Below are positions 2,686 to 8,408 of a stretch of DNA of 51,532 bases, in pieces. Position 1 is the first letter of the stretch. The number at the start of each line of letters is the position of its first letter. The stretch is from Gemmatimonadota bacterium (lineage in GTDB: Bacteria > Gemmatimonadota > Gemmatimonadetes > Longimicrobiales > Gaopeijiaceae), in the NCBI GenBank assembly GCA_022563405.1, contig JADFNK010000009.1, positions 1-51,532 on the forward strand, given 5' to 3'. A model generated the notes under the pieces. It did no database searches and was not told where the DNA came from. It was given only the letters and a program-made list of their open reading frames with translations. The position numbers and the translations under genes were made by a program.

Positions 2686-3543
2686 TCACCGTCCCCGTGG
2701 GCTCGGCGGCACGGTCGGGTACGTGATGCCCAACTGCTCCAAGTATGTGTCGAACCTCGTCTCGTCGAAGTAGTACTGCTCGAGTAGCGGCCTGAACGTC
2801 TTCATGGTGGACTCGTTGAGCTCGATCGCCGGCTGGTCGTCGGCCGAGATGAACGGCGTGTACTCCATGTCCTTCGTCTGCTCGTCGCGGAAGTAGGTCC
2901 AGGCTTCGGCGACCAGGTCGGGGTTCATAAAGAACTCGAGTGCCGTCATCGCGAGCGCCTTGGCCCCAGCGGTGGCGCCCTTGTGGGCGATGGGCGTGGC
3001 CATCGCGATCCCGCTCGACCAGTTATGGCCAGGCAGGCCCGGCACGTTCGAGGGGAAGCGCATGGTGACCGTCGGCACGGTCCAGGAAACGTCCCCGATG
3101 TCGTCCGAGCCACCGCTCCGGCGGCGCCCCGAAGGTGCCCTCAGCTCGGTGAGCTCCGTGGCGAGCCCGTTCGGGTCACTTTCCACCGCCTCCTGTACAG
3201 CGCGCGCGAGGGTCTGGTCTGCCTCGCTCCACTCGGGCAGTCCCACCGTCTTGATGTGCTCGTACATGGTCTCGGCGATCACCTTGTTGAAGTGCCGTGG
3301 CCAGGCCGAGCCCAGGATGCGGTAAGACATCTCGGTGTTGGTCATCAGGGCGGCACCTTCGGCCATCTGTATCCCGATGTCGAAGTTCTTCTTGATGTCC
3401 GGGTAGTCCATCTCTCGGAAGAAGTACCAGACGGCCGCTCGCTGGGGCACGACGTTGGGCTGGTCACCACCGTCCGTGATCACGTAGTGGGAACGCTGAT
3501 CGGGCCGCAGATGCTCACGTCGGAAATTCCAGCCCACGTTCAT
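2686..3543 (-). pseudogene. C-terminal fragment of a frameshifted M20 amidohydrolase (AbgB-like)
   Basis: This frame carries the end of the lid domain and the second half of the catalytic domain of an M20-family amidohydrolase (aminobenzoyl-glutamate hydrolase type). Landmarks are FRREHLRPDQRSHYVITDGG and the late metal-ligand region PGLPGHNWSS. It opens at an internal ATG (MNVGWNF) and has no signal peptide or first metal site, so alone it cannot be an enzyme. Upstream codons in the same frame read RRSALDAVELM, which continue the family sequence, so the two frames are halves of one ancestral gene. The 4-base overlap with the N-terminal half is a by-product of the frameshift, not real translational coupling. 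Confidence 0.8.
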
Positions 3544-4244
3544 GAGCTCGACGGCGTCCAGGGCGCTCCGGCGCCATGCGCCGACTCACCCACGAACGTG
3601 AACTCGGCAGACACGAGGCCAGTGCCGTTGGACGCCCCCCAGGTGACGCTCAAGTTGCTGGACACGTGCGTGAACATCACCAGATCAACGTCCTCGAAAT
3701 GACCATCCCGCACAAAATATGCCTTGGTGGCCAGCAACTCTTCGGCCACGCCGGGCCACAACACGAGCGTACCCTGGATACCCTCCCGTTCCATGATCTT
3801 CTTGAGAGCGAGTGCAGCCGTGACGTTCACCGCCTGCCCCGAGTTGTGCCCTTCACCGTGCCCCGGGGCCCCTTCGATGATGGGCTCGTGCCATGCCACC
3901 CCGGGCTTCTGACTGGCCTTGGGGATGCCGTCGATGTCGCTCCCGAACGCGATGACCGGAGAACCCGAGCCCCATGTGGCCCACCATGCGGTGGGGATCC
4001 CGGCGATCCCCTCTTCGACCTCGAAACCGTTCTCACGCAGAATCGACGTGACGTACGCGGACGTCTCGTACTCCTGGAAGCCCAGCTCCGAGAAGCTGAA
4101 GATCTTGTCCACCATGACCTGCGTGAGCTTCCTGTTGGCTTCGACTTCGCCCGTAACCTCCTCGAGTAGATCATCGAGGGATTGAGCGGTCCCATACGAG
4201 GGGACGAATAGGAGTAGCGGGGCAATCAGGGCGAGGGTCTTCAT
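3540..4244 (-). pseudogene. N-terminal fragment of a frameshifted M20 amidohydrolase, exported
   Basis: This half starts at the ATG at 4244 with a signal peptide (MKTLALIAPLLLF, cleavage probably after YGTAQ). It contains the first metal-binding region SDIDGIPKAS, the motif GHGEGHNSG and the catalytic PGVAEE dyad. Family members usually have HGCGHN; here Glu replaces the Cys. The frame breaks after GESAHGAGAPW and stops at TPSSS. The family normally continues through a second GRSALDAVEL stretch, which is found in the next frame from 3543 down. The break falls in a short repeated sequence and looks like a 19-bp deletion. The longer reading to 4307 lacks a signal-like start and is not preferred. 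Confidence 0.8.
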
Positions 4245-4617
4245 GGTGTATTCCGGCTGAGGTTGGATCCGACCATCAGCGATACGCTCCCTCGGTGTGC
4301 CAGGCAAGGGTCGTTCGGGTGGCCATGCGGCGCTTATGCTCCGGCTCAGTCAACCCACCGGGGTCGAGCGAGGCGAGACCCTCCCCTTGTAAGGCTGACC
4401 CCGAGCTAAGGTGAACGCTCGCCGTCCGGCTATCCAAGGACGAGACGATCGGATGCGTGGATGGGCAAGAATACCGCACGGCGTCAGCCTCTTCGAGCAC
4501 ACTCCGGACGAGATTCCGCCGGTTCCGGGTTGAGATCCGGCTTGAACGCCGTACGTTGCTCCTCCGAAGGCCGACCGCCCCTCCTCACTCACCTCGACGA
4601 GCCTCCGGGCGTCCACC
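4245..4617. other. Gene-less stretch with a possible degraded coding frame
   Basis: No convincing gene lies here. A 74-codon open frame on the minus strand (4276-4500) ends about 30 bp before the M20 start. Its C-terminal part (EPEHKRRMATRTTLAWHTEG) has a protein-like composition, but I recognise no family. It may be the tail of a gene cut by the arrival of the DUF1538 operon. No clear promoter or terminator was seen. Confidence 0.3.
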
Positions 4618-6378
4618 ATGAGTAAAGAAATTCGCTTTGGCGCCTTTGTCCGCGTGGCAACCCTTCGGCAAAAGGTCGTCAGCTTCAACGATCTGGTCAG
4701 GGTTAACACCGGCACGCCCAGGGACAGGGTCAGGCTGCGCCCCCTTTATGCCTACCGCCTCTTTACCCCCTATCTCTCCACCCGGCTGTTCGAGCAGGCC
4801 CGGGCCGTCATCCCGTTGGCGCTGTACCTGGTGCTATTCCAGGTATTCATTCTCCGCCAGGACATCGCCGATGCGGGAGTGCTGACTGCGGGGCTCCTCG
4901 CCGTCATCCTGGGCCTCATGCTCTTCATGGAGGGCCTCAAGCTCGGCCTGATGCCCTTTGGCGAAAGGCTGGGCAATACCCTGCCCGTACATTCGCCCTT
5001 GCCGGTCGTATTGCTCATCGTCTTTCTACTGGGTATCGGCGCAACCTTCGCCGAACCTGCGATCGGCGCATTGAAGGCCGCCGGGCAATTCGTCGACGTC
5101 ACCACCACTCCCTATTTGTACGCGCTGCTCAATCAATGGTCCGAGGCATTGGTTCTGGCCGTCGGCATAGGCGTCGGTTTCGCCGCCATACTCGGCACGC
5201 TGAGGTTCCTGTTTAGCTGGAGCCTGAAGCCCTTGATTTACCTCACCCTGGTACCTCTACTCGCTATGACGCTCTACCTGTCACAGAATGCCGACCTGGC
5301 ACCCACACTGGGGCTGGCCTGGGACACCGGCGCAGTGACCACCGGCCCGGTGACCGTACCGCTGGTGCTGGCACTCGGGGTCGGCATTGCGGGCGCAGCG
5401 GGCCGTGGCGACTCTTCCCTTTCCGGCTTCGGCATCGTCACGCTCGCCTCGCTCTTTCCGGTACTCGCCGTCCAGGGACTGGCGCTGTTCGTTTTCCACC
5501 AGCAATCCCCAGAGGCGATTGTCCTGGCCGCGCAAACGGTCTCTCTGAGCGCTTCCGGCAATTGGCTGACACAATCTCCCGGCGCAGAAATTATCGGCGG
5601 AGTCCGCGCCATTGTGCCACTCGTCCTCTTTTTACTCTTCGTGCTGTTGGTGGTCGTCAAACACAAACCGGTGCGGCCGGCGATCACCGCCTATGGCATC
5701 TTCTTGTGTGTGCTCGGCATGATCATCTTCAAACTGGGTCTGACCTACGGGCTGTCGGTGCTGGGCTCGCAGGCCGGAAGCCTGGTACCCGCCGCCTTTT
5801 CACCCCTGGATGGCATCGTCGGCTCACCCCTGTATTCCCTGTCCGCCGGACTGTTTATCGCCATCGGTTTCGCCTGGGTTCTGGGGTTTGGCGCAACCCT
5901 CGCCGAACCTGCGCTCAACGCGCTCGGCCTGACGGTCGACAATCTGACCAACGGCGCCCTGCGCAAGTCGACCTTGGTGTACGCCGTTTCCTTTGGCGTG
6001 GGCTGTGGTATCGCCGTCGGCATATCGAGAATTATCTACGACTGGCCACTGGTGTGGCTGCTCCTCTCCGGCTACGCCCTCGCCATCGTCCTCACGTGGC
6101 TCTCGACCGAGGAATTCGTCGATATCGCCTGGGACAGTGCCGGGGTGACCACCGGTCCGGTCACGGTGCCGCTGGTGTTGGCGATGGGGCTGGGTTTCGG
6201 CGAGGCCATGGGTGCCGTGGACGGTTTTGGTATTCTGGCCATGGCCTCCATTGGCCCCATCCTGTCCGTAATGGGTACCGGCCTGTGGATCAACTGGAAA
6301 ATTCAGCGTAAACACGTCATGAGCGAAGAACGACTGCCCGCCATTGACCGAACGGCACGACGGGGCAGAGCCGCATGA
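4618..6378 (+). CDS. Tandem DUF1538 integral membrane protein
   Basis: This 586-aa, strongly hydrophobic protein is made of two homologous DUF1538 halves, roughly residues 45-285 and 330-565. Each half has a GAT(F/L)AEPA motif followed by VTTGPVTVPLVLA(L/M)G. The internal duplication and the number of membrane segments suggest a transporter or channel with inverted-repeat symmetry, but the family has no settled function that I can name. The N-terminal 40 residues are basic and cytosolic. The ATG at 4618 (MSKEIRFG) is taken as the start; the Shine-Dalgarno is weak. The stop overlaps the next start as ATGA, and that gene encodes a P-II-like protein, so the membrane protein is probably controlled by nucleotide- or metabolite-sensing trimers. 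The operon is the only plus-strand unit in the surrounding minus-strand stretch and resembles gammaproteobacterial versions, so lateral gain is likely. Confidence 0.88.
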   Translation: MSKEIRFGAFVRVATLRQKVVSFNDLVRVNTGTPRDRVRLRPLYAYRLFTPYLSTRLFEQARAVIPLALYLVLFQVFILRQDIADAGVLTAGLLAVILGLMLFMEGLKLGLMPFGERLGNTLPVHSPLPVVLLIVFLLGIGATFAEPAIGALKAAGQFVDVTTTPYLYALLNQWSEALVLAVGIGVGFAAILGTLRFLFSWSLKPLIYLTLVPLLAMTLYLSQNADLAPTLGLAWDTGAVTTGPVTVPLVLALGVGIAGAAGRGDSSLSGFGIVTLASLFPVLAVQGLALFVFHQQSPEAIVLAAQTVSLSASGNWLTQSPGAEIIGGVRAIVPLVLFLLFVLLVVVKHKPVRPAITAYGIFLCVLGMIIFKLGLTYGLSVLGSQAGSLVPAAFSPLDGIVGSPLYSLSAGLFIAIGFAWVLGFGATLAEPALNALGLTVDNLTNGALRKSTLVYAVSFGVGCGIAVGISRIIYDWPLVWLLLSGYALAIVLTWLSTEEFVDIAWDSAGVTTGPVTVPLVLAMGLGFGEAMGAVDGFGILAMASIGPILSVMGTGLWINWKIQRKHVMSEERLPAIDRTARRGRAA

Positions 6379-6752
6379 AACACCGGGAAATCACGTTACT
6401 GACCGATGCATCGGTGATCACCTGCATCGTGCAACGGGGCACTGCCGACAAGATCGTGCAGGCCGCCCAGGATGCCGGCGCACAGGGGGCGACCATAAAC
6501 TATGCACAGGGTGTCGGGGTGCGGGAGCGGCTGGGGATCCTGGGTCTGGCGGTCGAAGTCGACAAGGAAGTCATCACCATCATCGTCGCCAACGACCAGG
6601 CCGACCGGGTGTTTGAATCCATGTATCTGGCAAGCAAACTCGATACGCCCGGCATGGGCATCATGACGCTCGCGGCGCTCGAGAAAATCGCCACCTATGT
6701 CCCCTCCGAACTGGTGGAAAGACTGGCCGGCAAGACCGACCCGGAAGAATGA
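6375..6752 (+). CDS. P-II-like signalling protein, first paralogue
   Basis: This 125-aa protein has the ferredoxin-like P-II layout: beta-1 (ITCIVQRG), helix, beta-2 (GATINYAQG), a T-loop region that is short and Arg-rich (GVGVRERLGIL), beta-3 (EVITIIV), a second helix, and the C-terminal KLDTPGMGIMTLAALEKI. Classical GlnB/GlnK have a longer T-loop with the modifiable Tyr51; I see no such tyrosine here, so uridylylation is unlikely. It overlaps the DUF1538 gene by ATGA and the next P-II-like gene by ATGA, so the three are translationally coupled. By analogy with GlnK-AmtB and SbtB-SbtA it probably binds the membrane protein and gates it. Family call is good; ligand unknown. Confidence 0.85.
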   Translation: MKHREITLLTDASVITCIVQRGTADKIVQAAQDAGAQGATINYAQGVGVRERLGILGLAVEVDKEVITIIVANDQADRVFESMYLASKLDTPGMGIMTLAALEKIATYVPSELVERLAGKTDPEE

Positions 6753-7102
6753 AAACAGCCACGGGCAGGAAACTCATCACCTGCATCATGCCGCATGGGC
6801 GTGCCCTGCCCGTGCTCGAGGCGCTCAAGGAAGAGCTCGGAATCCTCGCCATCATCATCCATCACGCCCGCGGCACCGGGCGCATGACTCCGCTGGCGTG
6901 GCGTGGTATCGGCGAATCATCGGAGAAGGATGTCCTGAGCGTTATCGTGCCTGCTTCACGGGCGGAGGAAGTCTTTGGCTTCATCTACGAACATGGCGGG
7001 ATCAACCAGCCTCATGGCGGAATTCTTTATCAACAACCACTGGCTAAAAGCACCGAGTTTCATCTCCCCGATTTGCCCGATGAGGGCACATCGAAGCGTT
7101 GA
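6749..7102 (+). CDS. P-II-like signalling protein, second paralogue
   Basis: This 117-aa protein shares the same fold: KLITCIMPHG (beta-1), a helix, AIIIHHARGTG, a T-loop segment RMTPLAWRGIGESSEKD, then DVLSVIVP and a second helix. It ends in GGINQPHGGILYQQPL, a Gly/His-rich tail characteristic of P-II-like partners of DUF1538 operons. It is clearly diverged from its upstream neighbour, so the pair may form two separate sensors or a heterotrimer. It starts at the ATG inside the ATGA overlap at 6749. A small GC hairpin follows the stop codon. Confidence 0.82.
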   Translation: MKTATGRKLITCIMPHGRALPVLEALKEELGILAIIIHHARGTGRMTPLAWRGIGESSEKDVLSVIVPASRAEEVFGFIYEHGGINQPHGGILYQQPLAKSTEFHLPDLPDEGTSKR

Positions 7103-7292: not shown

Positions 7293-7334
7293 ATGGAGTG
7301 AGACGGCGATCCCACCCATGCGTCAGGGCGTTAA
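7293..7334. repeat. Dispersed intergenic repeat, copy 2
   Basis: It begins ATGGAGTGAGACGGCG and continues through CATGCGTCAGGGCG. In the first 24 bases it differs from copy 1 at two positions; its last part matches copy 3 behind the HEPN gene. It sits just upstream of the MNT/HEPN promoter, so copies 2 and 3 bracket that module. Confidence 0.5.
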
Positions 7335-7339
7335 GCATC

Positions 7340-7368
7340 TTGTTCCGAGTTCCCGATTTGGGTACATT
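7340..7368 (+). promoter_or_regulatory. Promoter of the MNT/HEPN pair
   Basis: TTGTTC (7340-7345) and TACATT (7363-7368) are separated by exactly 17 bp. Transcription would begin around 7375, only a few bases before the ATG at 7379, implying a leaderless transcript. The spacer holds operator 1. Confidence 0.55.
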
Positions 7369-7383
7369 GCTTCCCAATATGGG
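7350..7383. promoter_or_regulatory. Tandem operator pair, TTCCCnATnTGGG
   Basis: TTCCCGATTTGGG (7350-7362) and TTCCCAATATGGG (7371-7383) are two dyad sites 21 bp apart, about two helical turns. The second is a perfect inverted repeat, TTCCCA-ATA-TGGGAA, when extended to 7385. Site 1 lies between -35 and -10 and site 2 covers the start site and start codon. This is what repression by the winged-helix domain of the downstream protein would need. Confidence 0.6.
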
Positions 7384-7999
7384 AATTATCAACTCGCCGG
7401 ACGGAGCCGGTCTGCCGACGACACTGGCCAATGCGCTGTTCACACCGGTGCAGCAGCGTGTCCTCGGCCTGTTGTTCGGCCAGCCCAAGCGACGCTTCCA
7501 AAGTGCGGAGTTGATCCGGCTAGTGGATTCGGGAACGGGCGCTACGCACCGCGTTCTGAAGCGTCTTGCCAGGAGCGGTCTGGTGCTCGAGAGCGTGGAC
7601 GGCCGGCAGAAGTACTATCAGGCGAACCCCGACTCTCCCGTGTTCGACGAGTTGGTCGCACTTGTCCGTAAGACGGTAGGTCTGGCCGGGCCGATACACG
7701 ATGCGCTGGTGCCACTCGCCGACCGAATCCGGGCGGCCTTCGTCTATGGTTCGATAGCCAGCGGCGGAGACCGCGCAGACAGCGACATCGATCTGATGGT
7801 GATCGCCGACCACCTCGACTATCCAACACTATTCGAAGCCGTGCAGGTTGCCGAAGGGCAACTCGCGCGTTCGATAGATTGTCGGGTGATGACGCCTTCG
7901 GAGTGGCAGAGCAAGCGTGCGCGCTCGGACAGTTTCGTGGCTCGACTCCAGGAGAAGCCACACGTTTTCGTTCTGGGTTCTGAAGATGACCTCCGATAA
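7379..7999 (+). CDS. Winged-helix MNT nucleotidyltransferase, antitoxin-type (MntA-like)
   Basis: The 206-aa protein joins an N-terminal winged helix-turn-helix (about residues 15-85, with ATHRVLKRLARSGLV as recognition region) to a minimal nucleotidyltransferase domain. The signature is GSIASGGDRADSDIDL: Gly-Ser at 124-125 and the metal-binding Asp136/Asp138. In HEPN/MNT pairs the MNT partner neutralises the HEPN toxin, in studied cases by adding AMP to it. The fused DNA-binding domain suggests autoregulation through the operators that overlap the promoter. The start at 7379 is chosen because it lies just behind the -10 box and begins the conserved part. An upstream ATG at 7298 would add 27 low-quality residues and put the operators inside the gene. 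It overlaps the HEPN gene by 14 bp. Antitoxin role is an inference from family and context. Confidence 0.85.
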   Translation: MGIINSPDGAGLPTTLANALFTPVQQRVLGLLFGQPKRRFQSAELIRLVDSGTGATHRVLKRLARSGLVLESVDGRQKYYQANPDSPVFDELVALVRKTVGLAGPIHDALVPLADRIRAAFVYGSIASGGDRADSDIDLMVIADHLDYPTLFEAVQVAEGQLARSIDCRVMTPSEWQSKRARSDSFVARLQEKPHVFVLGSEDDLR

Positions 8000-8408
8000 T
8001 CTCGAGAACCTGGTCGGAATCGGCCAACTGACGAAGGAACCACCGAGCGCCGACGAGCTGGCCGGGCTGAGGCGCTCAGGAGAGTCTCGCCTTTCGGACG
8101 CCGAACGGACCGACCTCTCGTTCGAGAGTCGCTTCGATCTGGCATACAACGCCGCGCACGCCCTGGCGCTGTACGCGCTCAGGCGACTGGGCTACCGGCC
8201 CAAGAACCGATACGTCGTGTTTCAAGCGCTTCCGCACACGGTCGGCCTGAAGACCGGCCACTGGCGAGTGCTCGCAAAGGCCCACGCGACCCGAAACACC
8301 GCGGAGTATGAGGGCTACCTGGAGCAGGACGAGCTGCTGCTGGCAGACATGATCGCAGCGACACGGGCGTTAGTAGACACCCTCCCTGAGGGCGGATCGG
8401 AGCCGTGA
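7986..8408 (+). CDS. HEPN domain protein, toxin partner
   Basis: This 140-aa, mostly helical protein has the HEPN pattern SRFDLAYNAAHALALYALRRLGYR and a second conserved block ATRNTAEYEG. In classical HEPN RNases the catalytic motif is R-x4-6-H; here the corresponding block is RNTAEY (residues 103-108) with no His, the variant usual in the MNT-partner subgroup. RNase activity is therefore uncertain. The ATG at 7986 lies inside the end of the MNT gene (14-bp overlap), a normal arrangement for a toxin-antitoxin pair. The longer frame opening at 7917 is a shadow of the MNT gene. Copy 3 of the dispersed repeat follows the stop codon. Confidence 0.82.
   Translation: MTSDNLENLVGIGQLTKEPPSADELAGLRRSGESRLSDAERTDLSFESRFDLAYNAAHALALYALRRLGYRPKNRYVVFQALPHTVGLKTGHWRVLAKAHATRNTAEYEGYLEQDELLLADMIAATRALVDTLPEGGSEP

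Follow-up and report, generated by a model that had tools for sequence, protein, structure and literature searches.

A tandem DUF1538 membrane protein linked to two unlike PII-like proteins suggests PII gating of a probable bacterial cation/H+ antiporter

Na+(Li+,K+)/H+ antiport by UmpAB of Halomonas zhaodongensis requires both of its subunits (PMC5484666), and within the DUF1538 family antiport has been measured for this UmpAB of one Halomonas only. The pair is active in E. coli with no accompanying PII gene, indicating that PII is dispensable for transport as such; the paper describing UmpAB makes no mention of PII (PMC5484666). PII-gated transporters are an already known kind. In GlnK–AmtB and SbtB–SbtA, the T-loop of the PII protein enters the transporter (PMC8352866, PMC8395244), and a 2023 review names Amt, Nrt, Urt and SbtA as PII-controlled transporters, noting that such control seems restricted to transporters able to act as trimers (PMC10710835). 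Here, we analyze a locus in which a tandem DUF1538 membrane protein is encoded directly upstream of two unlike PII-like proteins.

The locus lies in a 51,532-nucleotide stretch of a Gemmatimonadota metagenome-assembled genome (MAG; GCA_022563405.1, contig JADFNK010000009.1), hereafter called the window. Three ORFs follow one another on the same strand, each overlapping the next (Table 1). The initial annotation had described a three-gene operon of a tandem DUF1538 protein and two P-II-like proteins coupled by ATGA overlaps, and the ORFs, the overlaps and the Pfam matches agree with it.

Table 1. Features of the operon at window positions 4618-7102.
Feature	Position	Strand	Size	Description	Basis
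Fused tandem DUF1538 protein	4618..6378	+	586 aa	~14 TM segments	Pfam PF07556 twice, NCBIfam, AlphaFold2, conservation
UmpA-like half	~57-285 (protein numbering)				
UmpB-like half	~329-566 (protein numbering)				
ATGA stop/start overlap, DUF1538/PII-1	6375..6378	+			Sequence
PII-1	6375..6752	+	125 aa	PII-like; shortened T-loop carrying G-x-G-V-R-E-R-L-G	Pfam P-II, orthologue identity
ATGA stop/start overlap, PII-1/PII-2	6749..6752	+			Sequence
PII-2	6749..7102	+	117 aa	Fast-evolving PII-like paralogue, motif lost	Profile match, tree
Segment common to window and L004	4583..7104	+		87.8% nucleotide identity	blastn

A search of the host genome found one ordinary PII elsewhere and no DUF1538 locus other than that of the window. 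DUF1538 is rare in the Gemmatimonadota, exceeding the cut-off in 1 of 297 genomes, which is the window's own. Within the Gemmatimonadota one further copy was found, L004, which resembles the window solely across the segment listed in Table 1, with differing flanks (blastn); in tree distance, Pseudomonadota come next. The three genes thus behave as one cassette, in the manner of a horizontally transferred unit. Two further ORF pairs were observed in the window. At 7298-8408 (+), a HEPN-like ORF, which has no Pfam match, overlaps an ORF for a Pol-beta nucleotidyltransferase whose N-terminus is HTH-like; the pair looks like an MNT-HEPN toxin–antitoxin. At 2686-4307 (-), two overlapping ORFs, neither of which has a Pfam match, appear to be frameshifted fragments of a single peptidase/amidohydrolase-like gene.

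Scanning with the window DUF1538 protein, a single genome being taken for each species, yielded 80 loci. The survey was widened to whole genomes of the Pseudomonas order, of the Alphaproteobacteria and of the phyla of the Bdellovibrionales, Helicobacteraceae and Lentisphaerae loci, and plasmid records were also added. The order DUF1538–PII-1–PII-2 on a single strand was found in 79 of the 80 window-type loci, the remaining one being cut by a contig edge. A PII domain is located directly downstream of, or fused to, 190 of 199 unique DUF1538 units. Of the remaining nine units, five stop at a contig edge, two consist of an UmpA ORF with UmpB and PII after it, one has an upstream PII and one (L313) is PII-less. 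Complete units with an adjacent or fused PII therefore number 190 of ~192 and come from at least seven phyla. These counts indicate that the arrangement is not due to chance. They also bear out, at the level of genetic linkage, the initial suggestion that the transporter is coupled to PII-like regulators, a coupling further supported by natural DUF1538–PII fusions; in the proposed genome survey, PII proved to be no rare companion of DUF1538. L313:3947-5299 (-), the only complete surveyed unit without a nearby PII, has lost the conserved Glu in its first half and carries AHP in place of AEP.

Pfam recognizes two DUF1538 stretches in the membrane protein (PF07556, 357.8 bits, E 1.9e-107, cut-off 22.6). 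Its halves score 209.8 bits against UmpA and 172.6 bits against UmpB (NCBIfam NF041627/NF041628), where the equivalog cut-offs are 490 and 500 bits and are not reached; they are two homologous DUF1538 units fused in one chain. Among 392 genomes of the Pseudomonas order, none exceeded the UmpA equivalog cut-off, the best reaching 428 of 490 bits. In the AlphaFold2 model (pLDDT 91.2, pTM 0.89), helices are broken at two AEP and two TTGP motifs. Conservation analysis identified E146, D236, R196, E430 and D506 as invariant, and the four acidic residues among them sit at or near the helix breaks. The distribution of Lys and Arg fits an N-in, C-in topology with seven TM segments per half, which would make the halves inverted repeats. 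Such an arrangement would explain the requirement for both UmpA and UmpB, and this topology would place the DUF1538 C-terminus, the site of PII fusion, in the cytosol. The DUF1538 sequence had no credible match in the PDB, and Foldseek returned no PDB or viral structure, SbtA included, for the model at E<=0.001; the fold thus cannot be assigned to a named one. By analogy with UmpAB, the DUF1538 family is probably a sodium/potassium–proton exchanger of the bacterial membrane.

PII-1 is matched by Pfam P-II (PF00543) with 27.2 bits (cut-off 25), and PII-2 reaches 17.7 bits, below that cut-off. In profile–profile comparison, the PII-2 family is matched to PII-1 relatives at 99.3% probability, and its profile hits PDB PII chains with an E value of 6.8e-5. 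Both proteins are therefore real PII-like proteins, as first described. In GlnK, K90, R101 and R103 are ligands of the ATP phosphates, Q39 is a ligand of 2-oxoglutarate (2-OG), and Tyr51 is the uridylylation site of the T-loop. The column of Tyr51 falls within a five-residue T-loop deletion in both the PII-1 and PII-2 families, consistent with the earlier remark that neither protein has the uridylylation tyrosine. In the alignment, K90, R101, R103 and Q39 of canonical GlnB/GlnK are replaced in both proteins, whereas PII-1, and for the most part PII-2, retains a Lys at position 58. In almost all DUF1538-linked PIIs the T-loop tip that carries Tyr51 is absent, and Q39, K90, R101 and R103 are mostly missing, which makes canonical ATP/2-OG sensing unlikely. 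All DUF1538-linked PIIs were grouped apart from canonical PII in a tree with two canonical rows only. The closest solved PII relative, PDB 9p1x, contains 12 copies of one PII chain and 6 of a different one; it is probably the NifI1/NifI2 complex, and we found no mention of 9P1X in the open-access literature.

The two proteins evolve in very different ways. PII-2 is monophyletic (SH-aLRT 99) and joins PII-1 (94) on a long stem. Mean pairwise identity is 60% for PII-1 (85 orthologues) and 33% for PII-2, and the RxxLG loop motif is present in 74 of 85 PII-1 sequences versus 4 of 85 PII-2 sequences; each protein has its own set of conserved residues. Given the fast evolution of PII-2 and the absence of the conserved T-loop motif, PII-2 looks like a specialized partner more than a second equal sensor. 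The two unlike PII-like proteins originally described thus stand, but a pair of equal sensors looks less likely.

The window operon represents one of several architectures (I–VII) found across bacteria. Architecture I comprises UmpA, UmpB, one PII and a CBS-domain protein (PII in 30/30 and CBS in 29/30 of one set), the CBS domain being matched by Pfam. Architecture II has a fused DUF1538 protein of ~500 aa with PII and CBS, and architecture III, the window type, a fused protein of ~600 aa with PII-1 and PII-2 and without CBS. A single chain with two PII domains accompanies the fused protein on Clostridia plasmids (IV), and a single chain with three PII domains accompanies a fused protein of ~620-750 aa in the Pseudomonas order, the Bdellovibrionota and the Lentisphaerae phylum (V). 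Architecture VI consists of true fusions, namely DUF1538x2–PII single ORFs of 641-650 aa in Campylobacterota and a UmpB–PII single ORF (L138); Pfam supports both parts of each. In architecture VII, a lone half-size DUF1538 is followed by PII (L269:3142-4201 (-); a 234-aa DUF1538, the only match in its genome, and a 103-aa PII), and this half-size protein possibly forms a homodimer with dual topology. One gene cluster (L224, L225 and L226) contains two DUF1538 systems of different subtypes side by side; an additional PII precedes UmpA. The number of PII domains thus varies from one to three in systems with two DUF1538 halves. Dozens of such systems have a single PII and others have three PII domains, and the proposal of one sensor per half is rejected. 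The two unlike PIIs of the window are one common version of this arrangement.

Besides PII, the CBS protein is the only recurrent direct neighbor, in the subclass other than that of the window. It was observed downstream of the single PII in the UmpA/UmpB and fused ~500-aa systems (small CBS proteins in L219-L231, L239-L242, L249-L251, L255, L256, L272-L274 and L278-L307), and may be an adenyl-nucleotide sensor that replaces the second PII. The transporter motif co-varies, with few exceptions, with the T-loop motif of PII: TTGP, as in the window protein, goes with RxxLG, and TTST, as in the two-gene UmpA/UmpB relatives, goes with the KxFFG of single PIIs. This co-variation could stem from a single deep split.

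In systems with several PII domains, one domain is conserved (PII-1, TRI-d2, TAN-d2) and its partner domains diverge fast. In the triple-PII chains, RxxLG occurs in the middle domain in 8 of 9 cases and never in the outer two. Pfam detects one PII domain in each of two such proteins, the third domain in one and the second in the other. The triple-PII chain of L258 was modeled, from 11 sequences only, as three β-α-β-β-α-β units with a pTM of 0.77, and the model matches PII structures in Foldseek. We judge this pTM too high for loosely strung domains; the model suggests that the domains pack compactly, a pseudotrimer being the simplest possibility.

Taken together, these data make it likely that the operon codes for a UmpAB-type secondary cation/H+ antiporter and its own cytosolic gate of the PII type. 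We favor this reading because of the near-constant presence of PII, the natural fusions, the UmpA/UmpB matches and the invariant acidic residues. It also draws on the topology pattern, the motif co-variation, the single conserved PII per system, the L258 model, the two-chain complex of 9p1x, and the fact that two-gene UmpA/UmpB units likewise carry PII and CBS. Weighing against it are the scores of the halves under the equivalog cut-offs, the placement of the two-gene UmpA/UmpB relatives in the TTST subclass, the activity of UmpAB in E. coli without PII, and, for nucleotide sensing, the loss of K90, R101 and R103. In the mechanism we propose, the DUF1538 halves would form inverted repeats of ~7 TM segments each around the invariant Glu/Asp pairs, which would carry ions and protons. 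A PII trimer would dock on the cytosolic face of the transporter and lock or release it according to the small ligand that it binds, as in GlnK/AmtB and SbtB/SbtA; the first ligand candidate is an adenyl nucleotide or a cyclic nucleotide. PII-1 and PII-2 would probably belong to one heterotrimer, in which PII-1 would retain the conserved docking and sensing surface and PII-2 would be a derived subunit that completes the ring. Since the DUF1538 transporter is not evidently three-fold, docking of part of the PII ring might suffice, leaving the other copies free to diverge.

This scheme can be taken further, tentatively, to an ion antiporter with a fold unmatched in the PDB that is gated by an asymmetric PII ring of one sensing and docking subunit and one or two platform subunits. 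The subunits would have specialized because the transporter is pseudo-two-fold and not a trimer. With similar reserve, such specialization might extend to the single-chain triple-PII pseudotrimers and the antiporter-fused PIIs. If true, an asymmetric ring would break the view of PII control as limited to trimeric transporters.

A rather unlikely alternative to the mixed trimer, close to the dual sensing initially imagined, is that PII-1 and PII-2 form separate homotrimers, each with a ligand of its own and both acting on the one transporter. Window-type loci devote a gene to each protein, and the conserved residues differ between the two, as would be expected for dual sensing, and the two-domain chains of Clostridia could likewise form two stacked homotrimers. 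However, the apparently compact model of the triple-PII chain fits mixed trimers, PII-2 evolves fast without a conserved T-loop motif, and many systems have only one PII.

We also regard it as improbable that the window subclass carries another substrate, such as bicarbonate or another anion, instead of performing UmpAB-like cation antiport. The scores of its halves, both under the UmpA and UmpB cut-offs, and the presumed site motif (TTGP versus TTST) would accord with a change of substrate, and SbtB–SbtA is a PII-gated bicarbonate transporter (PMC8352866). Nevertheless, the family, the invariant acidic residues and the type of gene partner are all the same, and no carbon-fixation gene was recognized among the recurrent operon neighbors. 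Bicarbonate uptake is not our first guess because the DUF1538 family has measured Na+(Li+,K+)/H+ antiport in UmpAB. Finally, that the PII-like proteins are soluble or regulatory proteins simply co-transcribed with the transporter and making no contact with it, by analogy with the paired NifI1/NifI2 that act on a soluble enzyme (PMC9765008), is very improbable in view of the single-polypeptide DUF1538–PII fusions and the near-universal adjacency across phyla.

The linkage ties a widespread family, in one member of which Na/K–proton exchange has been measured, to its own PII subfamily in at least seven phyla, and a gated antiporter would place ion and pH balance under the influence of a metabolite sensed by PII. 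The almost constant PII beside or fused to DUF1538 points to an apparently undescribed gating of ion transport, and the natural fusions and single-chain triple PIIs offer ready experimental handles. A search of the open-access literature found no report of DUF1538 or UmpAB with PII; the pairing, like the fusions and the triple-PII chains, appears to be novel. Sant'Anna et al. in 2009 reportedly linked a PII group to cation efflux genes, and this group may overlap with the DUF1538-linked PIIs.

Compared with known systems, the window operon resembles UmpAB in its two homologous DUF1538 units, which align to UmpA and UmpB, but differs in being one fused chain, below the equivalog cut-offs, with two PIIs and with TTGP where the two-gene relatives have TTST. 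As in GlnK–AmtB, a cytosolic PII trimer would be genetically linked to a membrane transporter; however, the window PIIs lack Tyr51, K90, R101 and R103, their T-loop is five residues shorter, and there are two unlike PIIs with a transporter of a different family. SbtB–SbtA shares with the window operon a non-canonical PII-like partner and a secondary transporter with inverted repeats (PMC8352866), although SbtB was only a partial and weak match (E 0.0075, residues 5-41). The archaeal nitrogenase regulators NifI1/NifI2 provide the closest parallel for two adjacent unlike PII genes, both needed and acting on one target (PMC9765008); their target is a soluble enzyme, whereas that of the window pair would be a membrane transporter.
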